Positions 15,715 through 60,438 of a stretch of 62,858 nt of DNA are shown here, piece by piece; the first letter of the stretch is position 1; every line of letters starts with the position of its first letter. The translations under genes and the position numbers were made by a program. This DNA is from a virus, in the IMG/VR virus record IMGVR_UViG_3300025131_005047, positions 1 through 62,858 of that record. The stretch is one strand, 5' to 3'. The notes under the pieces are model-generated. The model was not told the DNA's origin and ran no database searches. It worked only from the letters and a program-made list of their open reading frames with translations.

Positions 15715-16365
15715 TTAAATCTTAGCTTTCATAACAAATAGCTTATTAGCTTTAGTACTATCTAATGTGCTCTTTAATCTCTTTACTGCTTTTAAGTTCT
15801 TTATATCATCATCTAAAAATACAATTTCATCATAGTCATCTAATAGTCCATTTATAATTTCTGCTTTTTTATCAAAGTCCGCCACTGCGGTTAGTTTTGA
15901 TGAAGTGACTGCATCATTAATAGCATAAACTAAATTTCTGTCTAATCTGTCTCCTATTGGGACTAATCTTCCTTCTTTATCTCTATACATTAACCACTCC
16001 CTTAAAGTGTCGTAGACAGCGTCCTCGTGACCTCTGGCAGTCAATATACCAATGTTATACCCTCTATTTATAAATTCATCCATCACATTAAGATTTGCAA
16101 TAATAGGTTCTCCACCCATAATTGAATCTGTAATAGATTTAGGGTCTGCAAAATCTCTATAATCGTAATATTTTTTGGTTTCGTCCGTAACTTTTTCATT
16201 ACGATATTCTGCTGGGGTTAATGCAACTTCCTCTTCACCAGGAAATTGTCTATAGATGTATATGTCTTCAGGTTCAACTACTGTGTCGTCTAAATCTAAC
16301 AATACAAGTCTATTTAAGTTTGCAAGTTCTTTTAAAATAAATCTATTACTTATATTTTTAATCAC
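15715..16365 (-). CDS. HAD-superfamily phosphatase with N-terminal leader
   Basis: A 216-residue HAD hydrolase. Motif I is LLDLDDTVV (Asp24 and Asp26), motif II is GILTARG, a Lys follows in FDKKAEIIN, and motif IV is VFLDDDIKNL, so all catalytic positions are present. The first 18 residues precede the HAD core and contain FILKEL, an L-x-E motif like T4 prohead-protease sites. It is the third gene of a set read in order aldolase, deoxyribosyltransferase-like, phosphatase, 7 bp after the previous stop. The substrate is unknown; dephosphorylation of nucleotides or deoxyribose phosphates would fit the neighbours (inference). Confidence 0.8.
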   Translation of the reverse strand: MIKNISNRFILKELANLNRLVLLDLDDTVVEPEDIYIYRQFPGEEEVALTPAEYRNEKVTDETKKYYDYRDFADPKSITDSIMGGEPIIANLNVMDEFINRGYNIGILTARGHEDAVYDTLREWLMYRDKEGRLVPIGDRLDRNLVYAINDAVTSSKLTAVADFDKKAEIINGLLDDYDEIVFLDDDIKNLKAVKRLKSTLDSTKANKLFVMKAKI

Positions 16366-16372
16366 TAATTTT

Positions 16373-17344
16373 TTATTTAAAATTTTCTAAGAAAGGCCAT
16401 AATTCATCATCGACTAAAATTTTGGTAATGGAAGGCATCATCCATGGGGATATATTTGATAGTTTCATTCCGTTAGTTAACCAGATAATAATTTGTGAAT
16501 TTTTTAATGCACTAATTTGAGCCTCTCCGAATGTACCCGCTCCCGCAGTACCATCAAAATTTATTAAATTAGTGTCACATATTTTTAACATATACAAATC
16601 TTGTACTACTATTTTGTCTCTTATTTTCTCTCTAAATACTTTAAAAGACTCATTATCTAATTCATTTGATTTCCAAGTTTTAAATAGTTTTTGGAACTCT
16701 TCGTCTTCATCTCTTACGGTTTCTGCTCTCATAGGATTAAGTATGATTGGTATTTCCAATCCTTTAAAATCCATTGTACCATTTGTAACTAATTCTAAAA
16801 GTCTATTACCTTTAACAACATGGTCTGGTCCAAAAAAGTCTTCTACTTTAGTTCTCCATGAAAGTGCATCATCCGCAAAATCTATTCCACCACCCAAATA
16901 AATTGCTCTAGGTTTAAACACTCCATCCATATCCATAGGGTCCAACACATCTATTAAATGAATAGTATCTTTCATTTCATCTGCACTTGCATTAATAAGA
17001 AAGTCAGAAGCTTTATCAGTTAGATATCTTTTTAACCATTTTTTCATTTTAGAAAAGAAACCGTCAGCTTTAAGTTCTGGTATTCCCCCATATGAAATCT
17101 CATTTAAATCATCAGATACATCCTCATCATCCCTCATTTTTCTAAATTCATCATCATAAAAATAATCTGGATTCGTCCCAGGATATTCCCTCCAATTATC
17201 TGGCCTATCATCTTCAGTAGTATTAACTAAATCATTTAAAACTTTTTTTACTTCTTCTCTTTTCTCTGGAGATAGTGATACTAGTTCATCATAAAGATTT
17301 GTTTTATCTTCTACAAATTCTCTTATAATTCTTTTGGTGTTCAT
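16373..17344 (-). CDS. Nucleoside 2-deoxyribosyltransferase-like protein
   Basis: A 323-residue protein. The C-terminal half resembles nucleoside 2-deoxyribosyltransferases: RAIYLGGGIDFADDALSWR (about 147-164), ILNPMRAE, then CDTNLINFDGTAGAG and TFGEAQISALKNSQIIIWL, with Glu274 at the expected nucleophile region. Such enzymes exchange bases on 2'-deoxynucleosides or cleave the glycosidic bond. About 145 N-terminal residues have no recognised domain and are charged; the extreme N-terminus (MNTKRIIREFVE) is a short helix with an I-x-E motif. The ATG directly abuts the stop of the aldolase gene, indicating co-translation. The family call is moderate. Confidence 0.6.
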   Translation of the reverse strand: MNTKRIIREFVEDKTNLYDELVSLSPEKREEVKKVLNDLVNTTEDDRPDNWREYPGTNPDYFYDDEFRKMRDDEDVSDDLNEISYGGIPELKADGFFSKMKKWLKRYLTDKASDFLINASADEMKDTIHLIDVLDPMDMDGVFKPRAIYLGGGIDFADDALSWRTKVEDFFGPDHVVKGNRLLELVTNGTMDFKGLEIPIILNPMRAETVRDEDEEFQKLFKTWKSNELDNESFKVFREKIRDKIVVQDLYMLKICDTNLINFDGTAGAGTFGEAQISALKNSQIIIWLTNGMKLSNISPWMMPSITKILVDDELWPFLENFK

Positions 17345-18151
17345 TTAATAATTTGTTTTTTCTATTTTATTACCTTTTATAATATCTTTTGCAGCAGACG
17401 TTCCTAATCTAGTAGCCCCTGCGTCCATCATTCTTTCTGCATCTTCTTTACTATAAATACCACCAGAAGCCTTAACTTGCAGGGGTCCTGCGTTGGACTT
17501 CATAATACTTACAGCGTCTGTTGTTGCACCACCATGTCCACTACCTTCTGGATTAAAGAATCCTGTAGAAGTTTTAACAAAAACATTACGAGCTTTTTCA
17601 GGACCAACAGTTTCTATAACTATTTTACTAATTAATGTTGTAAGTTCAGCAATTGCTTGAGGACCTAAAGCTCCTGATTCTATAATCCACTTAACCGTTT
17701 TTCCTTCACTTATCCCTATAGCTGTTCCTTCACTCACTTCCTTCATAACCTTATCTAGGTCACCACTCAAAAAAGCTTTATAATCTACCACAAAATCCAA
17801 TTCATCAACCCCGTTTTCAATTGCTTCCAAAGCTTCATCCATTTTATCACCATGTTCATTATCCCCATAAGGGAACCCTATAACGGTACCAACTAAAACA
17901 TTAGCCCCTTTATTATCTATAAATTCACGTGCTGTTTTAACATATTCAGGCCTTATCATAACTAATTTCATGTCATGTTCTATTGCATCTTTAATTGTGT
18001 CGAAAACTATTCTATCAGTTTCAAACTCATTTACCCCCGCTTGTTCTGGTGTTTTTAAATATGTAGAATCTAGATAACGGGATAAATCAACGTCATCTTG
18101 TTCTTTTATCAACATTAAATCTTTTATTCTTTTTATTTGTTCATTTAACAT
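17345..18151 (-). CDS. deoC: Deoxyribose-phosphate aldolase with N-terminal leader
   Basis: A 268-residue class I aldolase that interconverts 2-deoxyribose-5-phosphate with glyceraldehyde-3-phosphate and acetaldehyde. Conserved blocks are present: VLVGTVIGFPYG, DELDFVVDY (Asp119), the Schiff-base lysine Lys193 in FVKTSTGF, Lys227 in VKASGGI and GATRLGTSAA. The family core begins at LSRYLDSTYLK, so about 22 leader residues (core motif EQIKRIKDLM, then LIKE) are extra. The leader resembles a phage capsid-targeting peptide with an I-x-E processing motif (inference). It is the first gene of the minus-strand set, with a late promoter just upstream. A phage-borne deoC could recycle host deoxyribose or feed the deoxyribosyltransferase neighbour. 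Confidence 0.88.
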   Translation of the reverse strand: MLNEQIKRIKDLMLIKEQDDVDLSRYLDSTYLKTPEQAGVNEFETDRIVFDTIKDAIEHDMKLVMIRPEYVKTAREFIDNKGANVLVGTVIGFPYGDNEHGDKMDEALEAIENGVDELDFVVDYKAFLSGDLDKVMKEVSEGTAIGISEGKTVKWIIESGALGPQAIAELTTLISKIVIETVGPEKARNVFVKTSTGFFNPEGSGHGGATTDAVSIMKSNAGPLQVKASGGIYSKEDAERMMDAGATRLGTSAAKDIIKGNKIEKTNY

Positions 18152-18163
18152 CTAGTAATTGTT

Positions 18164-18175
18164 TATTTATAAATA
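18164..18175. promoter_or_regulatory. Palindromic bidirectional T4-type late promoter
   Basis: The perfect palindrome TATTTATAAATA contains the T4 late promoter element TATAAATA on both strands. It lies in the 36-bp gap between divergent genes deoC (minus) and a P-loop kinase (plus), about 13 bp from each start. A further minus-strand copy of the element lies at 18183-18176. It probably serves both genes through the gp55-like sigma factor encoded at 61.2 kb. Confidence 0.65.
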
Positions 18176-18187
18176 TATTTATAATAT

Positions 18188-18841
18188 ATGAAAAATTTGA
18201 TTAGAAATGCACTAAGAGAAGAACTACTACTGGAAGAGAAGGTAATTGGGTTTGATTCCCCAACCAACAACTTTGTGGTGGTAGCAGGAGGTCCTGGTGC
18301 AGGAAAAAGCTTTATAACACGAAATTTAATTAATCTAGACAATGTTAAAGAATTTAATGTCGACCAAGTAAGAGTTATGACAGCAAAAAAACTATGGGGA
18401 GACGATTGGGAAGAAATGATATCTACAGAAGAAGGGTACCAAGAAATATTAAATAGAACTTATACTACATCTGACCCTAGAAACTTAACTGTAAGATTTC
18501 TTAAACAATTTTTACAACAAGAAAGAAATCAGGGAGTTAATGTTATTTATGATGCAGGTGGAGGACAACAACAAGTAATGAAAGATGTATGGAGTCTTGC
18601 AAAAGATTCGGGATTTAATACCACTTTAGTTTATGTGAGGACCCCTTTAGAATTAGCCCAAATAAGAAATGATGAACGACCTAGAAGTTTACCGGATGAT
18701 ATGGTAGCCCAATATCATCAAAAAGTTAAAGACAATATGAGAAATATAATACCATTATTTGATAATGTTTGGATTATAGATAACAAGGAGTTAATAAACT
18801 TGGGGGATAGACCTTCTGAGAATATAGAAAAGATAAAATAA
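18188..18841 (+). CDS. P-loop kinase (zeta-toxin/polynucleotide kinase-like) with N-terminal leader
   Basis: A 217-residue P-loop NTPase. Walker A is GGPGAGKS (34-41) after the strand NFVVVA; VIYDAGGG is the second acidic strand and RNDERPRSLPDD is an arginine-rich lid. This layout matches AAA_33/zeta-toxin-like small-molecule or polynucleotide kinases. The first 20 residues (MKNLIRNALREELLLEE) form a helical leader with L-x-E motifs, like the leaders on the neighbouring aldolase and phosphatase. It diverges from deoC at a palindromic late promoter and ends 1 bp before a convergent HAD gene. The substrate is unknown. No antitoxin partner is visible, so a toxin role is not favoured. Confidence 0.7.
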   Translation: MKNLIRNALREELLLEEKVIGFDSPTNNFVVVAGGPGAGKSFITRNLINLDNVKEFNVDQVRVMTAKKLWGDDWEEMISTEEGYQEILNRTYTTSDPRNLTVRFLKQFLQQERNQGVNVIYDAGGGQQQVMKDVWSLAKDSGFNTTLVYVRTPLELAQIRNDERPRSLPDDMVAQYHQKVKDNMRNIIPLFDNVWIIDNKELINLGDRPSENIEKIK

Positions 18842-18842
18842 C

Positions 18843-19277
18843 TTAAATAGTCTTTATAATTTCCAATTTTATATTGGGATAATTTTTCATAGCTTTAGTT
18901 ACCGACGTGATATGTTTATCTTTATCTTCCCAGTATTTAACATGAACACATCCTGGATATTTCTTCAGAATTTTTTTTACTCTATTTCCTTTATCACGGT
19001 CCTCATTGTCAATTAAGTAATAATCATCAAAGATATAACCAAATCTATTAAGTAGATTTATTAACGGTTCTTTAACTTCCATTCTTCTATTAGATAGTAA
19101 AATAAATACACCTTCTGGGTCATAATTTAAAGATGTTGTATAATCCTTTTTAGTTTTTACTATAGCGGTAAAATTAAGGGCGGGGTCGAGACTTTCTTTT
19201 TGGTCGAGATATTCTATCGTCTCTTCGTAGGGTAAGCCGACAATTGTGTTGTCAAAATCAAATAGGTATATGGTCAT
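18843..19277 (-). CDS. Small HAD-superfamily phosphatase
   Basis: A 144-residue HAD protein: motif I LFDFDNTIV (Asp7, Asp9), motif II FILLSNRR, Lys in DRDKGNRVKKIL, and the acidic motif in KYWEDKDKHI. The length suggests a minimal Rossmann core without a cap, as in phage polynucleotide or nucleotide 3'/5' phosphatases. It has no N-terminal leader, in contrast to the HAD protein at 15.7 kb. It converges with the P-loop kinase; a separate kinase and phosphatase pair next to each other recalls T4 Pnk activities, but RNA or DNA end repair is only a guess. Confidence 0.75.
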   Translation of the reverse strand: MTIYLFDFDNTIVGLPYEETIEYLDQKESLDPALNFTAIVKTKKDYTTSLNYDPEGVFILLSNRRMEVKEPLINLLNRFGYIFDDYYLIDNEDRDKGNRVKKILKKYPGCVHVKYWEDKDKHITSVTKAMKNYPNIKLEIIKTI

Positions 19278-19432
19278 ATAATATATTTTATTGTTAGTAC
19301 AAAGATACTAAAAAAATCTCAAATAACCATAACAAACTTCAATATAATTTATTTGGATTATATGAAACCTTTTATTATCTTTAGAGTATAATATAATAGA
19401 AAACTAATGTATAATTATAAAATAAAGAAAAT

Positions 19433-19700: not shown

Positions 19701-20954
19701 TTATTCAAGTTCTATCTCAGCGTATTCCTCACCAAGAGAAATCTCATCATCAATATCTTCAAGCGCTTCATCCTCTTCTACCTCTGGATAAGGTATTGGG
19801 TTACTTACCGCATCATAACTTCTAGGAGCTGTTCCTCCTGGTTTACCTGATGCCATTAATTCTGCGGTGTACGTCATAAAATTATTTAATTTAGTTAATG
19901 TGTTCATTATCTGATGTCTTGTTTTCTTATCTTTAATGAAGGTCCATGCCTTTTTAAGATTTGATACAATATTTTCTATCCCGCTAGCGGCTGAAACCCC
20001 AGGATTACGACCACCACTCCATTCTGACTGTTCTACCAGTAAATAATTTTTTCTAGCCAATCCTCTAATTCTTTCTTTAACAATAGACTTTCTTATTTCT
20101 GTAAAAGTCTCCTCAATCATTAAATCTAATTGCTCTAATTGACTTTTGTGGTATAAATCATCTACTGATTCAAAATGAGTACCATATTCGCCTCTATCTT
20201 CATGGTCTTCATCATAAGACATATCTTTTTTAAGAGCACTTCTATGACTTCTACTCATATCGTCATGTTTTAATCTGTACTCATCATGTCCTTCATCTGC
20301 ACCATAATTATAAGTTTCTTCACCCTCACTATCTTCTTCAAGAGCCACACTATTAAACTTCTCTAAAGCGTCCATCGCCTTCTTTGTTTGACGTACTTTT
20401 TCTCGATTTTCTTCATTATCCTCAGCATCTCCTTCTTCTTCTATTCTTTGTTGCTTTATATTAGAATCAACACCTACAACTCTAGATTTTCTACCATCAA
20501 ACTCACTTCTATCTGAATGGTCAATATCTTCATAACCTTCACCCATTTCATAATCTCTTAACTTATCCATATTTAAATAAGCCCCAATTTCATCTTCATC
20601 AAAACCTTCTGCACTTTGGTCTGCCGTATATCCTGGAGTAAACTCACCTTCTTCATAACTAGGTCGATGACCACCCCCACCTTTATCATGACTAGGTCGT
20701 CTTTCATGTCTATAATCATCAAAAATTTCCTCTTCATTGGTTACGGTCATATCAGTATAGAAATCTTCAGAATCTGCTATAGCTAGGTCTACCGGGGGAG
20801 TTAACTGTTCGTTATATTGTTTTTCCATTAATCGAGTTAATTGTTCCTCACTAACCACTATTTCTTGAGGCTGTGACCCATAAGTTTCATGAATCTTCTT
20901 GGTTTTACCTAAACCTTCTAATATATTAGACTTTTTTAAATTGATTTTCTTCAT
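19701..20954 (-). CDS. Acidic phage protein of unknown function, sheath-linked
   Basis: A 417-residue protein, very rich in Asp, Glu, Gly, Tyr and His over residues 60-260, looking largely disordered. The C-terminal part (about 275-400) is helical, with segments such as LDLMIEETFTEIRKSIVKERI and NTLTKLNNFMTYTAELMASG. The N-terminus (KKINLKKSNILEG) contains an I-L-E-G motif similar to a prohead-protease site, followed by EEQLTRLME. It lies 2 bp after the tail sheath stop and ends at the terminator. It may be a tail or head accessory or internal protein; no known family is recognised. Confidence 0.6.
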   Translation of the reverse strand: MKKINLKKSNILEGLGKTKKIHETYGSQPQEIVVSEEQLTRLMEKQYNEQLTPPVDLAIADSEDFYTDMTVTNEEEIFDDYRHERRPSHDKGGGGHRPSYEEGEFTPGYTADQSAEGFDEDEIGAYLNMDKLRDYEMGEGYEDIDHSDRSEFDGRKSRVVGVDSNIKQQRIEEEGDAEDNEENREKVRQTKKAMDALEKFNSVALEEDSEGEETYNYGADEGHDEYRLKHDDMSRSHRSALKKDMSYDEDHEDRGEYGTHFESVDDLYHKSQLEQLDLMIEETFTEIRKSIVKERIRGLARKNYLLVEQSEWSGGRNPGVSAASGIENIVSNLKKAWTFIKDKKTRHQIMNTLTKLNNFMTYTAELMASGKPGGTAPRSYDAVSNPIPYPEVEEDEALEDIDDEISLGEEYAEIELE

Positions 20955-20956
20955 TT

Positions 20957-23900
20957 TTATACGTTCTCAAAAGATGCTCCTGTTGGAGTTATTAGGAATT
21001 CAACACTAATGAATTCAAGTGACCTTGTTGGTTTGATATAAATCTTACCTTCCAAGGTATTTTGGTCTATTAATTGTGGGTCATCAGATAGTACCACTCT
21101 AAAGTCTGTTAATCCTCTTTCTCTTCTAATAGAATCTAGAATTGGGTTTACTAAGTCTAAGAACTCATTTCTAACCTGTTCATCATTTTGTTCAAACAAT
21201 AATCTAACAGCAACTGCCGATATAAGTTTTCTAGCCTGTAGTAATAATCTTCTAACATTAATTCTATCTAACGCGGATTCTCTAATTTGTAAAGTTTTAT
21301 TACCCCAGATTACCGTACCTACATCAGAGTAGGTTGCAATTGGATTGATTCTACCTTGATAAAGGGTGTCTCTCTCATCTAGTGTAAGTTTCTTTCTTGC
21401 TTTAACAGCGTTTACAATACCCCGAGTATAACCAGCCGATGCGAACCATGGGAATGATATGTTATCCGTCAATGCTATGTTTCTCATTACCTCGTATGTT
21501 GGTGGTATGTATATTCTTACATTATTTTCTGTGTCATTATTAAGTACCCAAGGATAGTAAGTAGCCGTATAGTTAGAATCTATTCCAGTATTCTCTAAAG
21601 CTTGAACCGCGTTTAGAGGTGAAACGATACTAGCAGCATCACTCGGTGTAGCAACAAACATATTATAATCTGGTGTAGTTGCCACGTAAAGTGAATCCGC
21701 TCTATCATCCTCAATCATTTCTATAGATTCTTCTACTAAGTTACTATTATTAACATAATCAATACCTGGAGTAGCGAATATATTAATATTAACAGCTTCA
21801 GGATTAGCAAATGTGTGAATACCATCTAAATATGGATAATAATCCGTACTTGCGTCTAATGTACCGATTGGTTTGAATGAACCGTCACCAGTTGCGTTAG
21901 GGTATTCTGTAGTTGGACATGCTCCAGCTAAGTAACCACTTTGTCCTCTTCTATACGCGTCAGAATTACTTCTAGTTTTTCTATAGATATCCCAACCATC
22001 GAATCCACCATATGGTAGTACAGTGAATTTTCTTGAGTTTAATCTATAATAAGGGTCAGTAACTAAGATAGGTTCTGCTTGGAATGTAGCCTCTCCAACC
22101 ACAAATTGGTTGGTTATTCCAGATGTACCACCTACAGGACAACCACAATTAATAACTGCACATAACTCACCTTGTGTATAAGTACAGGTAGCATCTTTAT
22201 CCAGGTGGAACCCTTGTGTTAAACAAGGCCAGTCATTACCTGTAGGGTCTGCACATTTATCATTTGGTGCTTGTTTTCCTTTATAGTGGAAGAAATCTGG
22301 GTCGATTCCAATTGTGTCAGATATACCCAAATAAACCTGTCTTGGTTTATCTCCAGCACTAATAACTTCATTGCTTCCTCCTGATGATGTTCCAAACGGA
22401 GGATTATAAATTATTTCTCCTGGAGAATCATATTTTCTTTTATAAAGAACTGTTGGGTTCTTTCTACTAGCGTATTTTCTAAATAAGTAACCTTCAAAAC
22501 CACAAGGTAACGCTGTCCAAAGAGTATCGTCCATTTCAATATCTGGATTCATTTCTAACATTGCGTATCTACTCATTAATTCATATGTACCATCTGAAGT
22601 TCCAACTTTTTTACCTATGTAACTATTCAAGGTTGGGTTCAAACTACATCTAGTGTATTTCTCTAAAACTATTGGGTTAGCGTCCGTATCATTAAAGTCT
22701 CTGATAACAAAATCAAACTCAGCTCTTTCAAAACTAAGATTAATAATTGAGAATTTAACTGCTCTATTTGCTGCATCTCCATCAGGAATTGTTATAAATC
22801 TAAATAATTGGTATACTTTGAAACCTCTTAATTCAGATACAATCCATGGTGTTACTGGTGTTTGCCATTTTTCTTGATAGAATGCGATAGTATCCGTGTT
22901 AGCTGCTTCTCTAAATGAAGGTAGTGCTTGTAAAGTACATCTTAATCCTCTTACATAACCTTTTTTCCAGAAATGAGTTAACATTTTAGGATAAGCCTCC
23001 TCAACAAAAATAGGTACTTGTGTAGTGTCCCTATCAAAGTTACCAACACCATAAACTCGTTTTATATAATTTGTAGAACTTTCATTCATTGAAACATCAA
23101 ACATTCTACTTGTTCCTAATTTATCTATTACTCTCATACCAAAATCAGCAAATGGGTTGTTTAATACTTGACTCCATGTTGCCCCTGTACATACAAAAGC
23201 TACATCGGTTGCCCCGGTTACATCATAAAGTGGACCACCCGAACTTAAAGTACTTAACCCTCTCGAACGGAAAGTTGCAACTACTTGGTCATGATATTCA
23301 CAAAAAGTGTCTCCACTTAGTCGACACATTGTTATTGTAGTAATACCACTATATTGTGATTGTTGAATACTTGTTCCTGTGGTTGAAATATCTATTGCTG
23401 ATGTATAGGTCCCTGTTCCTCCACTTCTCGCTCCTAAAGTAAATAAAACAGAATAACCATCATATTTGTTTGTTACGGCATTATAATCAAAGAAATTATA
23501 TGTCCAAGTATCGTTCTTGTCGTCACATCTATCTGAACAGTGACTACTTAATCTATCAAACACTCCCCATCCATGAGTGTGAGGGTCAGTTCCGGTAATT
23601 ACACCATAAGGTATTGGTGCATTCATTTCAGGATAATTAATTGAGTTACCTGAACATACGCCAGAGTACTCTGCAAACTGGTGACAACCATATGACCATC
23701 CTAGACCTGTTCCTGATACAGCTACATCTGCTGGTGAGCCGTCTAAAGCGACTGGATGTTGTCCATTTAATTTTCCTGCTGCATATGTATAAAATGATGT
23801 TAAATCTGCTCTTAATGTAGTTGTACTTCCATTATACAATTCTATTGTGTTATCCATTCTATCACCTAAAAAAGTTGAACCCGCGATAATACTATCTATT

Positions 23901-24424
23901 ACCGAACCACCACCTGCATTTTTTACTGTGTTAGTAGAAGCAGTAAATACTGTTGTAAATAAAGCTTCGGTTGAACAATCTTCTGTAAGGCCTGTTATGC
24001 CGTCACAACATTGTGTAACAGCACTCATTGATGGGTCTTTTACATGACATAAATGTTTTAATGTTGTACAATCTAAATCTCCTAAAGTTATTACCGACCA
24101 AGAAGGTCCTGCGTCATAACCAGAATATCCTAATACTCTTGTTACAAATAGTTGATTTGATTGTTGTAAATAAGCTTTAGCGATATACCCCAATTCGTAT
24201 TTAGGTATCTGAGAGCCTACGTACTTTTCAGCACTTACACCCCCAAAATATGTGGTAAAATCACCATATGAACTTATAAAAATCGGCTCAAAAGCCGGTC
24301 CTCTTAATGCTTCTCCTGAAAGTCCTAATGTAGTAACTCCTACACTTTGTGATACGAAACTAAGGTCTTTCTCCGAAGTATACACCCCGGGGGAAACAAA
24401 AACTCTGTTAGAATTGTTAGCCAT
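20957..24424 (-). CDS. 18: Tail sheath protein (T4 gp18-like), unusually long
   Basis: A 1155-residue sheath protein. The N-terminus (VSPGVYTSEKDLSF, GLSGEALRGPAF, SYGDFTTYFGG) and C-terminus (GTVIWGNKTLQIR, INVRRLLLQARKLIS, FRVVLSDDPQLIDQNTLEGK) carry the conserved sheath polymerisation core. T4 gp18 has 659 residues, so about 500 residues are inserted between the two ends. The insert includes cysteine clusters (Cys119, 126, 139, 140 and 150; another near 740-790) and probably forms surface domains on the sheath. Its role is tail contraction driving DNA injection. It starts an operon with the acidic protein. Confidence 0.92.
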   Translation of the reverse strand: MANNSNRVFVSPGVYTSEKDLSFVSQSVGVTTLGLSGEALRGPAFEPIFISSYGDFTTYFGGVSAEKYVGSQIPKYELGYIAKAYLQQSNQLFVTRVLGYSGYDAGPSWSVITLGDLDCTTLKHLCHVKDPSMSAVTQCCDGITGLTEDCSTEALFTTVFTASTNTVKNAGGGSVIDSIIAGSTFLGDRMDNTIELYNGSTTTLRADLTSFYTYAAGKLNGQHPVALDGSPADVAVSGTGLGWSYGCHQFAEYSGVCSGNSINYPEMNAPIPYGVITGTDPHTHGWGVFDRLSSHCSDRCDDKNDTWTYNFFDYNAVTNKYDGYSVLFTLGARSGGTGTYTSAIDISTTGTSIQQSQYSGITTITMCRLSGDTFCEYHDQVVATFRSRGLSTLSSGGPLYDVTGATDVAFVCTGATWSQVLNNPFADFGMRVIDKLGTSRMFDVSMNESSTNYIKRVYGVGNFDRDTTQVPIFVEEAYPKMLTHFWKKGYVRGLRCTLQALPSFREAANTDTIAFYQEKWQTPVTPWIVSELRGFKVYQLFRFITIPDGDAANRAVKFSIINLSFERAEFDFVIRDFNDTDANPIVLEKYTRCSLNPTLNSYIGKKVGTSDGTYELMSRYAMLEMNPDIEMDDTLWTALPCGFEGYLFRKYASRKNPTVLYKRKYDSPGEIIYNPPFGTSSGGSNEVISAGDKPRQVYLGISDTIGIDPDFFHYKGKQAPNDKCADPTGNDWPCLTQGFHLDKDATCTYTQGELCAVINCGCPVGGTSGITNQFVVGEATFQAEPILVTDPYYRLNSRKFTVLPYGGFDGWDIYRKTRSNSDAYRRGQSGYLAGACPTTEYPNATGDGSFKPIGTLDASTDYYPYLDGIHTFANPEAVNINIFATPGIDYVNNSNLVEESIEMIEDDRADSLYVATTPDYNMFVATPSDAASIVSPLNAVQALENTGIDSNYTATYYPWVLNNDTENNVRIYIPPTYEVMRNIALTDNISFPWFASAGYTRGIVNAVKARKKLTLDERDTLYQGRINPIATYSDVGTVIWGNKTLQIRESALDRINVRRLLLQARKLISAVAVRLLFEQNDEQVRNEFLDLVNPILDSIRRERGLTDFRVVLSDDPQLIDQNTLEGKIYIKPTRSLEFISVEFLITPTGASFENV

Positions 24425-39398: not shown

Positions 39399-39809
39399 AT
39401 GAAGCTTTACAACTCATTAAAAGGTCTTATATTAGAAGCGGCAAACCGGGTGGAGATTGAAGAGGCCATTAAGGGTAGGAATGTTGTGTCAATATATTAT
39501 GCTGGAGATACTACGTTAAACCCTGGTTGGAGAACTATAGAACCAGTATGTGATGGAATGAGTAGAACAAAAGTAGGCACTGGTAATTTGGTGGTAAGAG
39601 CATGGCAACGAGAAGGAGCAACAGATAGACCTAGAACAATGCCGGGTTGGAGACTGTTTAGAGCTGACAGAATTACAACTTGGAATCCTACTCTGGATAC
39701 TTTTGAGGAACCTAGGCCACATTTTAATCCTGTAGGGGATAAAACATTAAGAAATAATGCGTGTTTTGTAATTGCAGACTTCAAAACCGCACCAGAAACA
39801 ATAGTATAG
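39399..39809 (+). CDS. WYL-like domain protein with capsid-targeting-like leader
   Basis: A 136-residue protein. After a short leader (KLYNSLKGLILEAANR) the body follows the order of a WYL-type SH3-like domain: NVVSIYYAGDT, GWRTIEPVCDG, NLVVRAWQREG, GWRLFRADRITTW and a final PRPHFNP. WYL-like folds bind nucleic acids or nucleotides. The leader contains I-L-E-A, the best match in this window to the T4 prohead protease site (I/L-x-E, cut before Ala). That suggests it is packaged in the head and processed (inference). Family call is moderate. Confidence 0.55.
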   Translation: MKLYNSLKGLILEAANRVEIEEAIKGRNVVSIYYAGDTTLNPGWRTIEPVCDGMSRTKVGTGNLVVRAWQREGATDRPRTMPGWRLFRADRITTWNPTLDTFEEPRPHFNPVGDKTLRNNACFVIADFKTAPETIV

Positions 39810-43135: not shown

Positions 43136-43744
43136 ATGATAGAAGGATTAATGGGTAAAATAAAAAAACTACAAACATTGGCTAGTGTAAGTCCTGATAG
43201 CATGATGAAAGAAGTAATGGATATTCAAAACGATGCAAACCTTTTAAAGGATTTAGAAAAATTACAAATGGAGGACCTTGCCCCAGAACCGCAAAAAATA
43301 CCAGTTAAATTTATAAATAAAAGCAATCATCCAGACCCAGCCTTTCAACATAAAGATGATAGTGGTTTTGACTTTAGAGCAAATATACCAAGAGACACAT
43401 TAACATTAAAACCTATGGCGCGACTAGCGGTTCCTACCGGCCTATACTTTGAGTTACCCGAGCATTATGAATTACAAGTAAGACCAAGAAGTGGTTTAGC
43501 TTATAATCACGGTATAACAGTACTTAATACTCCAGGTACTGTAGATAGAGGATATAGAGGAGAGATTAAAATCATTTTAATTAATTTAGGTCAAGAAAAT
43601 TTTGTCATCAATGATGGCGATAGAATAGCACAAGGAGTAATAAACGGCATATTATCACAATATTGGTCTGATTTCATTAAAGTTAATGAGATTTCTGAAA
43701 CTGAACGTTCTGATAATGGTTTTGGTAGTACAGGTAAAAAATAA
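43136..43744 (+). CDS. dut: dUTP diphosphatase (trimeric) with N-terminal extension
   Basis: A 202-residue protein that converts dUTP to dUMP and pyrophosphate. All five motifs are present: DDSGFDFRA, PRSGLA, GTVDRGYRGEIKI, GDRIAQGVI and RSDNGFGSTGK. The dUTPase core begins at about residue 53; the preceding helical extension (GKIKKLQTLASVS, MKEVMDIQNDANLLKDLEKL) is not part of the usual enzyme of about 150 residues. It prevents uracil incorporation and supplies dUMP. The gene overlaps the next by 1 bp. Confidence 0.92.
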   Translation: MIEGLMGKIKKLQTLASVSPDSMMKEVMDIQNDANLLKDLEKLQMEDLAPEPQKIPVKFINKSNHPDPAFQHKDDSGFDFRANIPRDTLTLKPMARLAVPTGLYFELPEHYELQVRPRSGLAYNHGITVLNTPGTVDRGYRGEIKIILINLGQENFVINDGDRIAQGVINGILSQYWSDFIKVNEISETERSDNGFGSTGKK

Positions 43745-44724
43745 TGAAAAACATATTAATAACTGGTGGACTAGGTTTTATTGGGGCGGCCTTAACAAAA
43801 AGATTACATAATAAGTACCCTGAGTATAAATTAATTATTGTTGATAATAATAAAGACCAACATAGATTAGATGAAATAAAAAAAAGTATAAAACTTTATT
43901 CATATGATATATGTGACCAAAGACTTATAGATAAATTATTTGACCTATATGCTTTTGATGGTGTTTTTCATTTGGCTTCAAGAAAACCTAAAGTAAATGA
44001 AGAATATAAAGAAACTCAATTTATAAAAACTAATATTGTAGGAACTTCAATTATACTAAATAATTGTGTTAAACATAAAAGTAGAATATTATATACATCT
44101 AATACTGAAGTATATGGTAGTTTAGATATGGATAAACGTACCCATTTATATGAAACCAATTGTTATCATCCATCAACTCCTTATGCTGCATCTAAAGCTG
44201 CTGCAGACCACCTTATAACATCTTATCATGAAAAATACGGTTTAGATACTTTAATAACTAATATATCTAATACCTATGGTCCAGACCAAGACAATGAAGA
44301 TTTTGTTTATATTATTATAAATTGTTTATTAAATAATAAATCTGTTCCTGTTTATGGAACCGGTGAAAATGTAAGAGATTGGGTTTATGTTGATGATGTG
44401 ATTGATATGTTAGATTTAGCTTATCATAAAGGAATATCTGGAGAAAATTATAATGCGGGAGGTGGAGAGCTTAACGAATTTACTAATATTGAATTAATAA
44501 ATCAAATTAGTAGAGGTATAACTAATATTTTAAATGGTGAGCCTTCTCAGCATAGATTAATTAATCACCTTTCAGATATTGGTGGTCATGATTTAAGACA
44601 TTCGGTTAATTACGATAAAAGTATTCTTAGGTTACGTTGGAAACCTAAAACCCATATCGAAATGGGTATAAATGAAACTATAAAATGGCATATGAATAAA
44701 GATGGGATTAACAATAGCATTTAG
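43744..44724 (+). CDS. NAD-dependent epimerase/dehydratase (extended SDR)
   Basis: A 326-residue extended SDR. The NAD motif is ITGGLGFIGAAL, the catalytic pair is Tyr147/Lys151 in TPYAASKAAADHL, and RDWVYVDDV is the conserved substrate-domain strand. It resembles UDP-glucose 4-epimerase and dTDP-glucose 4,6-dehydratase-like enzymes. The exact reaction cannot be fixed; a nucleotide sugar is the likely substrate given the cluster. It overlaps the following glycosyltransferase by 23 bp. Confidence 0.8.
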   Translation: MKNILITGGLGFIGAALTKRLHNKYPEYKLIIVDNNKDQHRLDEIKKSIKLYSYDICDQRLIDKLFDLYAFDGVFHLASRKPKVNEEYKETQFIKTNIVGTSIILNNCVKHKSRILYTSNTEVYGSLDMDKRTHLYETNCYHPSTPYAASKAAADHLITSYHEKYGLDTLITNISNTYGPDQDNEDFVYIIINCLLNNKSVPVYGTGENVRDWVYVDDVIDMLDLAYHKGISGENYNAGGGELNEFTNIELINQISRGITNILNGEPSQHRLINHLSDIGGHDLRHSVNYDKSILRLRWKPKTHIEMGINETIKWHMNKDGINNSI

Positions 44725-46216
44725 CACAAAAGAAATAGATAATAAATTTATATCTCATCTAAAAGAAAGTTGTGGTGTAAAGGATGTTCAAATTTTACCG
44801 TATGAGAATAAAGGAACTATGTCTCTCACTCAGGTTTATAATAAAGCCTTGGAAGACTCTACCTCTGATATTATTGTGTTTACCCATGACGATGTAATAT
44901 TAGGTAAAAATAATTGGGGCAAAAAACTAATCAAACAATACACTAATTCTGATTTTGGTTTGTTAGGTGTAGCTGGTACCACTAATATGGCATCTACAGG
45001 AAGATGGTGGGAGGACACCTCTAAAATGATTGGTAGGGTAAGTCATTCCCATGAAGGTAATACATGGACAAACAACTATAGTAATACTTTTCCTGGTAAA
45101 ATTTTAGAAGTGTGTTGTTTAGATGGTGTATTTTTTTCATGCCATAAAAAAAGAATAAAAAATAGTTTCGATGAGAATATTAATGGTTTTCACTTTTATG
45201 ATGTAGATTTTAGTTTTGGCAACCACCTACATGATGTAAAATGTGGTGTTATTTTCGATGTTAAACTAACACATAAATCTATTGGTCAAACCAACGATGA
45301 ATGGGAAAGTCATAGAATAGACTTTGTTGAGAAGTACTCTTTTATGCCTAATACTGACAAACCTTGTTTACCGTACAGTATCCAACCTACTATAATTTAT
45401 AGGGATAAACTAATAAAGATAAAAAACCCACCAAAGGTTAGCATAATAATTCCTACTATTGATAATATAGATATGTTGTTTAGATGTGTGGATTCACTGT
45501 TAGAAAAAAGTAATTACAAGAATATTGAAATATTAATTGCGGATACTGGGAGTAGCGAGGAAAATCTAGAGGAGATGAAAAATAGATACCCTCAAGATTT
45601 TATTAAGATACTTGAGTACGATTATTATCATTTTGCAGAGATTAATAATGACGTAGTCAATAACCATGTTAGTCCTGACACTGAACTTCTACTATTCTCC
45701 AATAATGATATTGAGTTAATAAATGATGCTATAAGTGAAATGGTTAGTCTCTGGAGTAAAAATAAAAGACGTTGTGGGACTGTAGGTGCAAGACTACACT
45801 TTGAAGATAATACTCTACAACATGCTGGAATGTTTCTTTTTGGTAGAAGAGAGGGTGAAAATATAAATTTAGGTCTTACACATCATGGTCATCGGTCACC
45901 CTACACTTATCCTTTTGATAATGTGACAGGAACAATAGGCAATACTGCCGCTTTTGTTCTAATAAGTAAATCTCTGTTTAAGGATGTAGGAATGTTTAAT
46001 GAAGAGTATATGGAATGTTTAGAAGATGTAGAATTAAACCTAGCTTGTGCAGCTAAAGGAAGATTGAATTGTTTTGCGGGTAACGCTGTAGGATATCATT
46101 ATGAAAGTATAACAAGAAAGACGGATGGTAAATTAAACCCCCAAGACTGGCAAAAATTGGTGGCTTACATTAGAAGTAATCCCAAATTAACTAACTTAAT
46201 AAAAATAATAAACTAA
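44702..46216 (+). CDS. Two-domain glycosyltransferase (GT2-type)
   Basis: A 504-residue protein with two GT-A-like units. The N-terminal unit has IIVFTHDDVIL (Asp63-Asp64) and LDGVFFSCHKK. The C-terminal unit starts at about residue 244 (PKVSIIIPTIDNIDMLFRC) with LFSNNDIEL, a DVGMFNEEYMECLEDVELNL block and a final His-containing AVGYHYES. The second is a clear GT2. Tandem transferases commonly add alternating sugars; the product is unknown. Confidence 0.8.
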   Translation: MGLTIAFSTKEIDNKFISHLKESCGVKDVQILPYENKGTMSLTQVYNKALEDSTSDIIVFTHDDVILGKNNWGKKLIKQYTNSDFGLLGVAGTTNMASTGRWWEDTSKMIGRVSHSHEGNTWTNNYSNTFPGKILEVCCLDGVFFSCHKKRIKNSFDENINGFHFYDVDFSFGNHLHDVKCGVIFDVKLTHKSIGQTNDEWESHRIDFVEKYSFMPNTDKPCLPYSIQPTIIYRDKLIKIKNPPKVSIIIPTIDNIDMLFRCVDSLLEKSNYKNIEILIADTGSSEENLEEMKNRYPQDFIKILEYDYYHFAEINNDVVNNHVSPDTELLLFSNNDIELINDAISEMVSLWSKNKRRCGTVGARLHFEDNTLQHAGMFLFGRREGENINLGLTHHGHRSPYTYPFDNVTGTIGNTAAFVLISKSLFKDVGMFNEEYMECLEDVELNLACAAKGRLNCFAGNAVGYHYESITRKTDGKLNPQDWQKLVAYIRSNPKLTNLIKIIN

Positions 46217-46217
46217 T

Positions 46218-46994
46218 ATGAAAATAGGAATATCTTATAATTTATTTGATGGTGAAGAACTACTAGAAAGTTCTATTAAAAGTATTCGAGATAATGTAGA
46301 ATATATAAGTGTGGTATACCAAACCACATCTAACTTCGGTAATCAATGTGGTAAAGAACTAGTACCTCTTTTAACTACATTAAAAGAAAAAGGATTAATA
46401 GACGAATTGTATTTCTATAAACCTATCTTACGAGGTGGGGGACATTTTAACGAAATAACAAAAAGAAATATCGGATTATCTTTATCTGAACGTAATGGAT
46501 GTACTCATCATATGGCAATGGATTCCGACGAATTTTACACTTCAACACAATTTTTCAATATGAAAAACATATTGAAAGAAGGTAACTATGATTCAAGTGC
46601 ATGTCAAATGGTAACCTACTATAAGGAACCAATTTATAGATTAGAACCTAAAGAAGAATATTACGTGTCCTTACTTTTTAAAATTAACCCAGGGAGGGCT
46701 TATAAAATTAATTGCCCATTTCCTGTTTTAGTAGACCCGACTAGGAGAATGGAGGGTGGTACTTGTAAGATTTTTAAAAGAGAAGAAATTGAAATGCACC
46801 ATATGAGTTATGTTAGAAAAAATATTAAAACTAAATTAACCAATTCCTCTGCCTCCCCAAACTTTAGAGATATTGATAGGATAGTTAATTATTATAATTC
46901 CTGGAAATACCCAAAACAAGGTTTAATGGGTGGTTCTCCAGATAAATTTTACGATATAGTAAAAGAAGAAAAACTATTTGACTCATGGGAATAA
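46218..46994 (+). CDS. Putative GT-A glycosyltransferase
   Basis: A 258-residue protein starting KIGISYNLFDGEELLESS, a GT2-like N-terminal strand. The DxD-type metal motif is HHMAMDSDEFY (Asp102, Asp104), and a later EMHHMSYVRKNI may hold the closing His. It overlaps the following gene by 10 bp. Donor and acceptor unknown. The GT-A call rests on the DxD and neighbours. Confidence 0.65.
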   Translation: MKIGISYNLFDGEELLESSIKSIRDNVEYISVVYQTTSNFGNQCGKELVPLLTTLKEKGLIDELYFYKPILRGGGHFNEITKRNIGLSLSERNGCTHHMAMDSDEFYTSTQFFNMKNILKEGNYDSSACQMVTYYKEPIYRLEPKEEYYVSLLFKINPGRAYKINCPFPVLVDPTRRMEGGTCKIFKREEIEMHHMSYVRKNIKTKLTNSSASPNFRDIDRIVNYYNSWKYPKQGLMGGSPDKFYDIVKEEKLFDSWE

Positions 46995-47617
46995 TAAATG
47001 ATTTTTTTGATAAAATTTATTGTGTTAATCTAGATGAACGGGTTGACCGATGGGAACAAGCCCAAAAAGAATTTACCAAACTAGGAATAAATGATGTTAC
47101 TAGGTTTTCTGCTGTTAAACATGAAAATGGTGCTATAGGATGTAGAGAGAGTCATCTAGGGATTATTAGAGAGGCAAAAGAGTTAGGATTAGACAATGTA
47201 TTAATCTTTGAAGACGATTTATTAGTTTTAGATGAACATGTAGATAAAATACATTTAGCCTTAAAAGATTTAGAGACTGTAGACTGGGATTTATTTTATT
47301 TTGGTGCAACAGTAGACCCTAATGTTGGGCAACTTCAAAGAGTTACGGAGTACTTAGTAAGAACCAACTGGGCATATACAACACATGCTTACGCAGTTCC
47401 ATCCAGACTATTTGATTATATTTTAAGTGAAGGACCTAACCATGGAATAATTGATGTATTTTTATGTACAACAATTGTACCTAGAGGAAAAACTTTTATT
47501 ATGAATCCACTTTTATGTATACAACAAGAGAGTTATAGTGACATAGAAAAGCATGACGCGGATTACTGGTGGATGATTAAGTTTTTCAATAACGTATTAA
47601 ATAAAGAAAAAAAATAA
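46985..47617 (+). CDS. Glycosyltransferase family 25
   Basis: A 210-residue protein matching GT25 (LPS galactosyltransferase type): DKIYCVNLDERVDRW, GAIGCRESHLGIIREA, then VLIFEDDLLV with Glu76-Asp77-Asp78 as the metal motif. It probably adds a hexose to a lipid-linked or protein-linked glycan. The stop overlaps the next gene's start by 1 bp. Confidence 0.85.
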   Translation: MGIINDFFDKIYCVNLDERVDRWEQAQKEFTKLGINDVTRFSAVKHENGAIGCRESHLGIIREAKELGLDNVLIFEDDLLVLDEHVDKIHLALKDLETVDWDLFYFGATVDPNVGQLQRVTEYLVRTNWAYTTHAYAVPSRLFDYILSEGPNHGIIDVFLCTTIVPRGKTFIMNPLLCIQQESYSDIEKHDADYWWMIKFFNNVLNKEKK

Positions 47618-48300
47618 TGGCATATAATCACGAAAAAGGAACATGTTGGTACAATGAAAAGACTTGTTGTTATATTGGAATACCTAAAACCGCTTCCACA
47701 ACTATGAGAAGAGTTTTTAGTTTAGAGTCGGTGGACAACTATTATCAACCAGAAAACGTTAACATAAAAAAGTTGGATTTAATTACTATTTTTAGAAATC
47801 CTTTAGATAGGCTCGTATCAGCTTATAATGAAGTAGTTACGAGAGGTGGTCATCCTGTTGAAGGTGAAGGAATAAGAAAAGCTTCTTTTTGGAAGATGCC
47901 TGAGAGTAAAGAAAGATTTATTACATTTTTAGATGATATAGAAAAAGAATTTTTTGATTCTCATGTTGAAGAGCAGCTATTCTATATGACTAATGAAAAT
48001 GATGAACTGTTACCTTTTACTCACATATTGGATTTTAATAATTTAGATGACCAGTTCATCAATGTCCTAGGTTTACGGACCACTGAAAACCCAGACTATT
48101 TTTTAAAGCATGACGGGATGGTACAAATAAGAGTTCATCAACGAAGTAAAGACTCGGATAGAGAAAGAACTAATAATTATTTAGATGATACACTTATAGA
48201 GAGAATTAAAAAAATATACTATAGAGATTTTGAGTTCTTTAATCTTCTAACTAAGCCAAAACCAACACCTAAACTCTTTAATAGTAATTTAAAATGGTAA
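47617..48300 (+). CDS. Sulfotransferase-like protein
   Basis: A 227-residue protein of the carbohydrate sulfotransferase type: CYIGIPKTASTTMRR (5'-phosphosulfate loop, about 18-32) and IFRNPLDRLVSAYNE (3'-phosphate site). These enzymes move sulfate from PAPS to a sugar hydroxyl. It overlaps the fucosyltransferase by 7 bp, so the sulfated target may be the glycan being built. Activity would depend on host PAPS. Confidence 0.75.
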   Translation: MAYNHEKGTCWYNEKTCCYIGIPKTASTTMRRVFSLESVDNYYQPENVNIKKLDLITIFRNPLDRLVSAYNEVVTRGGHPVEGEGIRKASFWKMPESKERFITFLDDIEKEFFDSHVEEQLFYMTNENDELLPFTHILDFNNLDDQFINVLGLRTTENPDYFLKHDGMVQIRVHQRSKDSDRERTNNYLDDTLIERIKKIYYRDFEFFNLLTKPKPTPKLFNSNLKW

Positions 48301-49064
48301 CGTCTAATTTAATCGGTGGCCTAGGAAACTATCTATTTCAAATTGCAACTGCATATTCGTTAGCGGTGGATAATAATGATAGTATTGTTTATGACCCAGA
48401 AAAAACTGTTGTAGTGCATAACCATATTAGTACATATATGAATAATATACTTTATAATGTGCCTTTTGGTTCTGTTTTGGTGGAAAATGAATATCAGGAA
48501 CCACACTTTAACTATTCTCCGATTGAGTACAAGCCTAATCTCAACCTAAGTGGATACTACCAAAGTGAGAAATATTTTTTACATAATAGAGATAAGATAT
48601 TAGAATTATTTTCATTTGGTGAGTCAGTTAATAAATTGGTTAAGGACAAATATAATAACATTTTAAATATTAAAACTTGTGCTATCCATGTAAGAAGAGG
48701 CAATTATTTAATGTTACCTAATCATCATCCGGTATGTTCATTTGATTATTATCAACGTGCAATTACAGTAATGCCAAAAGATTGTGAATTTATAGTCTTT
48801 TCTGATGACTTAGAATGGTGTAAGAATAATTTTAGTAATATAGATAGAAAATTTCACTATATAGAAGATAATGTAGATTATGTAGATTTACTATTAATGT
48901 CTAAATGTGATAATAATATTATTGCAAATTCTAGTTTTTCGTGGTGGGGGGCTTGGTTAAACCAAAACCCAAACAAATTAATAATAAGTCCAAATAAATG
49001 GTTTGGTACTTCTATTAACCATAACACTGATAACTTAATACCAACAACATGGGTAAAACTATAA
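48294..49064 (+). CDS. GT11-type alpha-1,2-fucosyltransferase
   Basis: A 256-residue protein of family GT11. It shows the N-terminal LIGGLGNYLFQIATAYSLA, the GDP-fucose-binding HVRRGNY (132-138), FDYYQRAI, FIVFSDDLEWCK and the NSSFSWWGAWL block. It would transfer fucose or a related 6-deoxy sugar from GDP. The donor can be made by Gmd and Fcl encoded 7.5 kb downstream. It overlaps the GT10-type gene by 16 bp. Confidence 0.88.
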   Translation: MVTSNLIGGLGNYLFQIATAYSLAVDNNDSIVYDPEKTVVVHNHISTYMNNILYNVPFGSVLVENEYQEPHFNYSPIEYKPNLNLSGYYQSEKYFLHNRDKILELFSFGESVNKLVKDKYNNILNIKTCAIHVRRGNYLMLPNHHPVCSFDYYQRAITVMPKDCEFIVFSDDLEWCKNNFSNIDRKFHYIEDNVDYVDLLLMSKCDNNIIANSSFSWWGAWLNQNPNKLIISPNKWFGTSINHNTDNLIPTTWVKL

Positions 49065-49798
49065 GAGCAAAAACATATGGATGTTTAGAACCAGAGTTAT
49101 ACTTTCATAAAAGTGTTAGTATCTCATCTGATACCACAGAACGCGACCCTACTGCAGAATTTAAAGTATTATTGCAATTAGAGCCCCCAAGTATTATAGA
49201 TTTAACAATACCAATAATTCAAAACCAATATCATTTTGATTTAATTTTAGCATGGAAGCAAGAAGTGTTAGATGGTTGTGAAAATAGTGCATTTCTACCT
49301 TTTGGTTCGTGTTGGATTGATGATAAAGACCATGGGGTTCATAAAAAAACTAAATTAGTTTCTATCATTGCGTCCCAAAAAAATATAACTATTGGGCATC
49401 AATTACGTCACGCTATTATAGCAAGAGATAAAACATTAGACTTATATGGTAGGGGCTATAATGCTATTGATAATAAAATAACCGCTTTAAAAGATTATAT
49501 GTTTTCTGTCATAATAGAGAATTCTACAACTAAAAATTACTTTAGTGAGAAAACAATAGATTGTTTAATTACCGGCACAGTTCCTGTTTTTTGGGGTTGT
49601 GAAAATATTTCGGATTTCTTTGATACAAGAGGTTTTATATTTTTTGATAGTGTAAAAGAGTATAAACAAATTAGAGACTCACTAACTAAAGAAAAATATC
49701 TTGAGATGTTACCTTATATTGAGAAGAACTATACTCTATCATTAAATTATATTAAATTTGCTAAACGAGTAGAAACAGAAATTGATAAAAGAATATGA
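49049..49798 (+). CDS. GT10-type alpha-1,3-fucosyltransferase
   Basis: A 249-residue protein. Residues 148-185 carry the family GT10 donor motif: KDYMFSVIIENS, YFSEKTIDCLITG and VPVFWG. It would add fucose or colitose-like 6-deoxy sugars from a GDP donor. It is adjacent to the GT11-type enzyme, giving two fucosyltransferases of unrelated folds in a row. The N-terminal acceptor domain is short. Confidence 0.82.
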   Translation: MGKTIRAKTYGCLEPELYFHKSVSISSDTTERDPTAEFKVLLQLEPPSIIDLTIPIIQNQYHFDLILAWKQEVLDGCENSAFLPFGSCWIDDKDHGVHKKTKLVSIIASQKNITIGHQLRHAIIARDKTLDLYGRGYNAIDNKITALKDYMFSVIIENSTTKNYFSEKTIDCLITGTVPVFWGCENISDFFDTRGFIFFDSVKEYKQIRDSLTKEKYLEMLPYIEKNYTLSLNYIKFAKRVETEIDKRI

Positions 49799-51282: not shown

Positions 51283-52088
51283 TGATTTCAATTTGTATAC
51301 CAACATATAATCGTAAAGGAGATGAACATGATGAGACCTACAATAATCTCACTATGTTAGTTGATTTATTTAAAAGTATTGAGAGTCAAACGTATACTAA
51401 TTATGAAGTTATAGTTTCAGACCACTCTATAGATGGTAGTATTAAAGAGGTTTGTGATGTTTGGATTGATAAAATTAATATAAAATATTTCTTAAATAGT
51501 AAAAACCATGGTAGTTGTGAAGCCAATCTTAATTATGCAATAACTAAGTCCATTGGAGACTACATAAAACCTATGTTACAGGATGATTATTTTAGTTCAC
51601 CAGAGTCTCTAATGATTTTAGTTAACACATTAAAAAATAATAAGAATAAATGGATAGCTTGTGGTTGTTTACACATTAACGAAAATGACCCTACACCATT
51701 TAATCCCCACCCACCTAGATTAAATGACCCACGACAGTTATTAAATGGTATAAATCTTATTGGGAGTCCAGTGGTTGTGATGTATAAAAAAGAAATGGAT
51801 TTATTGTTTGACCATAACTTAATTTGGTTAATGGATGTTGAGTTTTATTATAGGGCTCTCAAAAACTATGGACCACCTATTCTTATAGATGATATGTTAT
51901 TAGTAACACGATTAAGAAAAGATGGAATAACCAATACAATGATAACCCAAGATATTATTGATGAAGAGACTAACTACTGTAACCGTAAAAATCTTGATGG
52001 GGTAAAGATTAACTTAGACGAATACCCATCGATGAACAATAGAATTAAAAAATTTAAGAGTAAAAACTTTATTTCGTCTAAAAAATAG
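51282..52088 (+). CDS. Glycosyltransferase family 2
   Basis: A 268-residue GT2: MISICIPTYNRKG, DLFKSIESQTYTNYEVIVSD, GSCEANLNYAI and the metal motif LQDDYFS. I chose the ATG at 51282, which overlaps the preceding stop (TAATGA), rather than an upstream in-frame start at 51255 that adds a Leu/Trp run. Its donor sugar is unknown. Confidence 0.85.
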   Translation: MISICIPTYNRKGDEHDETYNNLTMLVDLFKSIESQTYTNYEVIVSDHSIDGSIKEVCDVWIDKINIKYFLNSKNHGSCEANLNYAITKSIGDYIKPMLQDDYFSSPESLMILVNTLKNNKNKWIACGCLHINENDPTPFNPHPPRLNDPRQLLNGINLIGSPVVVMYKKEMDLLFDHNLIWLMDVEFYYRALKNYGPPILIDDMLLVTRLRKDGITNTMITQDIIDEETNYCNRKNLDGVKINLDEYPSMNNRIKKFKSKNFISSKK

Positions 52089-52120
52089 AGTATGATTATA
52101 ATGAAAAAAAGTAAGAATTC

Positions 52121-53529: not shown

Positions 53530-53531
53530 AA

Positions 53532-54119: not shown

Positions 54120-54120
54120 T

Positions 54121-54666: not shown

Positions 54667-54668
54667 TT

Positions 54669-55808: not shown

Positions 55809-55811
55809 TAA

Positions 55812-56813: not shown

Positions 56814-56814
56814 A

Positions 56815-57717: not shown

Positions 57718-57722
57718 ATAAA

Positions 57723-58472: not shown

Positions 58473-58480
58473 CTTTAACT

Positions 58481-60430: not shown

Positions 60431-60438
60431 ATATAAAA

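Follow-up and report, generated by a model that had tools for sequence, protein, structure and literature searches.

Capsid-targeting-like N-terminal leaders on DeoC and neighbouring enzymes of a marine T4-like phage

Why should the deoxyribose-phosphate aldolase (DeoC) of a phage begin with a stretch of residues that its cellular counterparts do not have? The question is raised by IMG/VR record IMGVR_UViG_3300025131_005047, a fragment of 62,858 bases (the window), which we read as belonging to a T4-like myovirus, from a marine virus of bacteria. A preliminary description of this DNA had proposed that four neighbouring enzymes carry cleavable leaders of the kind that target proteins to the T4 head. 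We conclude that this is probably what they are, namely propeptides that are cut by a prohead protease from head cargo destined for injection. The open reading frames (ORFs) and leaders of all four lie where they had been placed, with leaders of 9-17 residues ending in (I/L)-x-E, and a WYL-like and an acidic protein indeed share the form (LILEA and NILEG types). The six genes at issue are placed between the genes for the tail sheath (20957-24424, which matches annotated phage tail sheaths) and the tail tube. Elsewhere in the window, at 43744-61239, a long series of genes seems, going by N-terminal sequences only, to concern sugar nucleotides and glycosyl transfer: a GDP-mannose dehydratase-like gene at 55812, epimerases, aminotransferases at 52121 and 54669, and glycosyltransferase-like proteins. 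The leader-bearing genes and their leaders are listed below; a slash marks the proposed cut.

15715-16365, minus strand: leader-bearing phosphatase of HAD type, starting with GTG (match to PHROG 415, 'polynucleotide kinase', at E 5.8e-10; orthologues at 38 viral loci)
16327-16365, minus strand: HAD leader, VIKNISNRFILKE/LAN, proposed cut after E13, from the fixed E position in orthologues
16373-17344, minus strand: nucleoside deoxyribosyltransferase (NDT)-like protein with leader, a weak assignment from Pfam Nuc_deoxyri_tr2 in two of five orthologues
17318-17344, minus strand: NDT-like leader, MNTKRIIRE/FVED, proposed cut after E9
17345-18151, minus strand: DeoC with leader, from TIGR00126, fold matches in the PDB and alignment
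18101-18151, minus strand: DeoC leader, MLNEQIKRIKDLMLIKE/QDDV, proposed cut E17/Q18, from comparison of start lengths with cellular DeoCs
18188-18841, plus strand: P-loop kinase (AAA_33, zeta-toxin or PSTK-like) with leader (PF13671, E 8e-13)
18188-18235, plus strand: kinase leader, MKNLIRNALREELLLE/EKV, proposed cut after E16, from the fixed E position
39399-39809, plus strand: WYL-domain-like protein with leader (PF13280, E 7e-4, just under the cut-off)
39399-39437, plus strand: WYL leader, MKLYNSLKGLILE/AAN, proposed cut E13/A14
19701-20954, minus strand: acidic protein, probably disordered, whose gene follows directly after that of the sheath, with leader-like motifs NILE/G and VVSEEQLTRLMEKQYNE/Q
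20916-20954, minus strand: leader of the acidic protein, MKKINLKKSNILE/GLG, with ILEG, LVEG and LVES as orthologue counterparts

Position and exchange of the leaders

The bare count of (I/L)-x-E is uninformative, as 18 of the 58 ORFs in the window carry the motif within their first 27 residues. Since the motif alone is too common, we examined instead its position relative to the domain, its behaviour in orthologues and its restriction to phages.

The DeoC leader can be measured against cellular enzymes. The protein scores 137.8 bits against TIGR00126, an NCBIfam equivalog with a cut-off of 117.3, and all six aligned orthologues retain the catalytic lysines of KTSTGF and KASGGI. In a scan of genome contigs, its nearest matches are Flavobacteriales DeoCs, with a top identity of 50-55%. 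All 80 cellular flavobacterial DeoCs compared are without a leader and start 7-10 residues before DSTYLKT, whereas the phage protein starts 27 residues before it. A cut after E17 would leave 10 of these and would thus restore the cellular start length. In the AlphaFold2 (AF2) model, which matches DeoC structures in the PDB, the barrel begins at residue 23 and a low-confidence helix (residues 2-13) lies outside it, followed by coil. By these comparisons the phage enzyme is a host-derived DeoC that has gained about 20 residues at its N-terminus. A near-identical sequence, L001 (L001:7476-8288, corresponding to window 17345-18151; NDT-like protein 99.7%, kinase 100%), departs from the window only in mid-DeoC, where it resembles L002, pointing to recombination within the gene.

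In the HAD phosphatase and the kinase it is the orthologues that fix the site. Profile-guided scans of IMG/VR yielded 40 HAD and 29 kinase loci. In 17 of 17 distinct HAD leaders the glutamate stands exactly 5 residues before (R/K)L(V/I)LLD, with I or L at P3 throughout, although the leaders span 16 to 31 residues counted to the domain and fall into several unrelated sequence groups (MKSLIKQILIE, MNYIRRILREYTEQPLNE, MPYIVKKNIISE, VIKNISNRFILKE and MRNIIINNKQLLFLVENIKNKRNLSE are examples). The chance of such a fixed position is about 6e-8, a rough figure that assumes five crude independent groups, a per-position frequency of 0.02 and 20 offsets. The kinase behaves in the same way: all 18 distinct leaders, of two unrelated types, place the glutamate exactly 12 residues before the P-loop strand FVVxAGGPGAGKS, and P3 is I or L in 16 of the 18 and F in the other two. 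Outside the conserved E site, the leader sequence of both families varies or is replaced by another type. Thus the kinase orthologue of the 246-kb relative G003 carries MLTEQINRMKKLMLVE, which is the type found on the window DeoC (MLNEQIKRIKDLMLIKE), whereas the window kinase carries MKNLIRNALREELLLE, of the type MKNLIRNALRE... Because the leader type differs between orthologues, the leaders behave as modules. More distant kinase homologues in T4-like phages of Pelagibacter, Methylophilales and Aeromonas have short leaders of their own (HTVC008M, MIPFILKE/G; Melnitz, MKTFAELQE/G; Aeromonas CC2, ...FVQLEE/K). A leader list for the whole HTVC008M genome, drawn up with a loose regular expression, was too noisy, and this genome was used for the kinase only.

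The remaining proteins follow suit to differing degrees. All full-length WYL orthologues found retain ILE or LTE. The leaders of NDT-like orthologues end in IIRE/F, ILKE/F or LLKE/Y; this leader, taken singly, may be chance. The protein's Nuc_deoxyri_tr2 matches are below threshold (best E 0.0038), a profile search of the PDB returned chance-level matches only, and its fold is left open because the AF2 model has a predicted local distance difference test (pLDDT) score of 37. Of the 'nucleotide-salvage set' named in the preliminary description, DeoC alone is securely assigned by sequence, and the NDT label is weak. The same description had named homologues without leaders as evidence that would count against it; the orthologues found do keep leaders, and in them the distance between a conserved (I/L)-x-E and the domain is constant.

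Two broader statistics agree with this. Over residues 5-30 of 536 non-redundant families (I/L)-x-E is enriched (odds ratio (OR) 1.69, p 2.5e-13), in contrast to (I/L)-x-D (0.93). Leader profiles trained on G004 match 23 of 431 held-out N-termini versus 15 of 1941 internal segments (OR 7.2, p 5.7e-9). The ratio of non-synonymous to synonymous polymorphism (pN/pS) in the leaders is 0.19-0.39, and they are therefore selected as protein.

Head machinery, promoters and occurrence in phages

T4 gp21 reportedly cleaves its substrates after L/I-X-E, ten residues of the capsid-targeting sequence (CTS) of internal protein III (IPIII) are enough for head targeting and packaging, and foreign proteins fused to a T4 CTS are packaged and then delivered (PMC9026906). 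Aspartate in place of the P1 glutamate prevents processing in T4. A search for the protease family PF03420 in the 62.9-kb fragment found none, so the head genes were read from relatives. An S77 (gp21-type) prohead protease is present in G002, G003, G004 and G009, as well as in 14 of 20 further large contigs that bear leaders or are related. Aligned with T4 gp21, the relatives' protease retains the histidine of ELNHP and the serine of SSRG, and in five relatives the major capsid protein reads LINE/A at the position of FLTE/A in T4 gp23. In the same comparison, T4 internal proteins and gp24 carry leaders of this kind.

Between protease and major capsid protein lies a scaffold-like protein (G003:C1:211685-213367, G002:C1:125878, G004:C1:28404) whose N-terminal region includes a leader-like stretch (IEELVKESLNEQ, IKELVKESLSEEE); this recalls the resemblance between T4 internal-protein leaders and gp22. 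Two long low-complexity proteins (G001:C1:120618-122309 and G003:C1:81166-83676; L129, L099) contain internal leader-type motifs, SNLTEQIDRIKQMILFKE and KLRESDLYRIVERVLNE, and a possible domain comes after each motif; these proteins may be polyproteins, or core proteins with several cut sites.

The leader-bearing genes are also linked to a particular promoter. The motifs around these genes, and the gene that serves as an internal control, are as follows:

18168-18176, minus strand: late-type promoter motif ATATTTATA, at -25 of DeoC (DeoC-NDT-HAD run)
18175-18183, plus strand: second copy of the late-type motif ATATTTATA, at -13 of the kinase gene; it and the divergent DeoC copy overlap
18843-19277, minus strand: second small HAD protein (HAD2), without a leader and with a host-type promoter
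19300-19307, minus strand: host-type (Bacteroidota) -10 element TATCTTTG, upstream of HAD2

In these genomes the sense octamer TATTTATA lies 11-30 bases before about 185 of 1334 starts, and the sheath and tube genes are preceded by a slightly looser form of it. The looser motif precedes 22 of 41 leader families versus 69 of 436 other families under 450 residues (p 1.8e-7). From the genes that it precedes, ATATTTATA/TATTTATA is a putative late promoter. The exact T4 late promoter, TATAAATA, occurs in the window no more often than by chance; what is enriched is sense TATTTATA at -30 to -11. HAD2 starts with MxxxLFDFDNT in all orthologues, and its promoter is TATATTTG in most relatives; G005 and the window have the Bacteroidota-type TATCTTTG instead. 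Upstream regions of G001-G012 fall into two promoter classes with different gene sets, [ACG]TATTTATA at -30 to -11 and the Bacteroidota-type TAnnTTTG.

How far do such leaders extend beyond the window? A degenerate DNA pattern for a single leader type, M-K-x-[LF]-I-[KR]-x-I-L-x-E, matched at least 120 stretches. At the 80 loci that were read, the pattern stands at the opening in-frame ATG of an ORF (median length 159 residues) in 97 of its 106 matches, and behind it are a NUDIX hydrolase, a 2H-phosphoesterase, an Ntn-hydrolase-like protein, HAD and kinase proteins and many proteins without assignment. A profile of one leader type matches 1-10 proteins per contig in 19 of 20 phage contigs; 24 Flavobacteriales genomes gave no match. 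Because most of these contigs were picked for carrying the pattern, it is the comparison with hosts that informs; by it, the leader is confined to phages.

Two loci may be singled out. At L402:1044-1457, the leader MKRFIKKILRE stands immediately before a NUDIX domain (PF00293, E 5.3e-15). At L391:2527-3072, a 2H-phosphoesterase directly behind a MKDLIKKILKEE leader shows weak similarity to Acb1, which counters the cyclic oligonucleotide-based antiphage signalling system (CBASS) (PF23474, E 4.5e-4, below the cut-off); it is a candidate injected counter-defence protein.

The cultured Flavobacterium phage vB_FspM_immuto has a run of such leaders and is a tractable test system for them. Its rows are:

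L447:9812-10411: 5'-nucleotidase with leader MKKVMGNLADLLLE/ESDF
L447:23311-23532: small gene between portal and prohead protease with a MKKSQIVKAVQEVLEE leader, a type shared with other leaders

The literature yielded nothing relevant on immuto virions or on DeoC in virions, and the 15 papers found to use the term 'capsid targeting sequence' do not, to judge by their titles and abstracts, seem to deal with such cargo in marine or Bacteroidota phages.

Weighing the explanations

Taken together, the comparisons strongly support the view that the leaders are added tags, and the T4-like capsid-targeting reading of the preliminary description is borne out in part: homologue leaders, the protease and capsid cut site in relatives, late-type promoters and phage confinement agree with it. 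The protease gene sought there is absent from the fragment and present in relatives.

Several points weigh against this reading. Across 93 widely conserved families, a test of column conservation gave no global excess of conserved N-terminal (I/L)-x-E; the leaders are therefore not on the common core set. T4 sites usually have a small residue (A, G or S) at P1'. WYL (A) and the acidic protein (G) agree with this, but HAD (L), NDT (F), DeoC (Q) and the kinase (E) do not, and L, F, Q, E, Y and D occur at P1' across leaders. A small P1' is not a defining feature, because the published gp21 rule names only L/I-X-E. A general P1' of Q, considered from LNEQ-type leaders, was rejected, as E, S, Q, D and others occur among the pattern matches. 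In any one family a conserved glutamate just before a domain could be structural, but this would hardly explain it in several unrelated families. Relatives supply the head genes and protease, the window fragment being without them, and the 'late' label of the promoter rests on position and analogy. Finally, leaders and cargo are here read from sequence.

This last point, together with the several (I/L)-x-E sites that some leaders contain, leaves some room for a docking peptide that is never cut and that tethers the enzymes, for instance to one another, or to some other phage protein or compartment within the infected cell, instead of to the head. Enzymes of one pathway could benefit from co-assembly. 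We nevertheless regard this as unlikely, since the sole constants across unrelated leaders, I/L at P3 and E at P1 at a fixed distance from the domain, are the gp21 recognition rule, and the cargo is very diverse, is linked to late-type promoters and shares a leader type with a gene in the immuto head cluster. Targeting to the tail, baseplate or outer surface of the virion is less likely again: the window genes do sit between sheath and tube, but a gene's place in a structural cluster is not enough to assign its product, and (I/L)-x-E cleavage is a prohead process in T4, whose internal proteins and gp24 bear such leaders. Least probable is that the extensions reflect nothing more than normal N-terminal variation, misassigned start codons or chance and have no function in common, for although about a third of these phages' proteins have the motif near their start, with no excess in widely conserved families, this is already refuted as a general account by the unvarying position across 35 distinct leaders from two families, the held-out enrichment, purifying selection, the pattern's place at first ATGs and the absence of the leader from host genomes; single leaders, such as that of the NDT-like protein, could still be chance.

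If the leaders are capsid-targeting propeptides, the enzymes would be made late, off phage late promoters. The N-terminal amphipathic helix would dock on the prohead scaffold core, so that the enzyme is enclosed as the shell forms, and a gp21-type protease would cut after (I/L)-x-E, leaving a native-length enzyme inside the head. DNA would then be packaged around the freed enzyme, which would be ejected with it into the next host and act before any phage gene is expressed. The HAD phosphatase, NDT-like protein, kinase and DeoC could plausibly form a pathway that breaks down deoxynucleotides. An alternative and speculative use of the delivered enzymes would be to weaken nucleotide-based host defences as infection begins, an idea for which the Acb1-like cargo found elsewhere is the sole encouragement.

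Whether the leaders amount to a general protein-loading system of these T4-like marine phages, with interchangeable classes on many unrelated proteins that include enzymes and possible counter-defence, seems to us evenly balanced. Within that proposal, and with the same even confidence, the classes would be MKxLIKKILKE, TESELxxLIxxVLxE, LxEQIxRIKxLM...xE and TEEEKxRIxxLH...LxE. Such phages would bring a kit of ready-made enzymes into the host. Injected proteins, normally learned by proteomics one phage at a time, could be read from sequence; a fixed cut rule would allow packaged proteins to be predicted across thousands of marine phage genomes.

Comparison with known systems

Should the capsid-targeting reading hold, some 'auxiliary metabolic' enzymes would shift from late expression to instant delivery at infection. 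Auxiliary metabolic genes of the cyanophage type are likewise host-derived metabolic enzymes in marine T4-like phages; those are expressed in the infected cell, whereas leader and late-type promoter point here to loading into the particle. The leaders would also supply natural tags with which enzymes could be loaded into phage heads.

The inner-body proteins and virion RNA polymerase ejected by phiKZ and SPN3US are likewise a case of many proteins packaged with the DNA after a related protease has removed their propeptides (PMC5694885, PMC9026906). Their propeptides are mostly much longer and are cut at A-x-E or S/A-x-E, whereas the phages considered here are T4-like by sheath, major capsid protein and protease.

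The closest parallel is the T4 CTS of IPI, IPII, IPIII and Alt, removed by gp21. Both systems have 10-20-residue helical N-terminal leaders ending in (L/I)-x-E and many mature parts behind similar leaders, and the relatives share the T4-like protease and capsid cut site; the Melnitz kinase leader MKTFAELQE/G even resembles T4's MKTYQEFIAE/A. In T4 the cargo, which is injected (PMC9026906), consists of Alt and a few small basic proteins. The leaders described here are of several types, often with Q, E, L, F or Y at P1'; their cargo includes host-derived metabolic enzymes such as DeoC, and one type alone marks 1-10 proteins per contig. The best reading of these sequences is thus of T4-like leaders that would serve a far wider cargo than that of T4.

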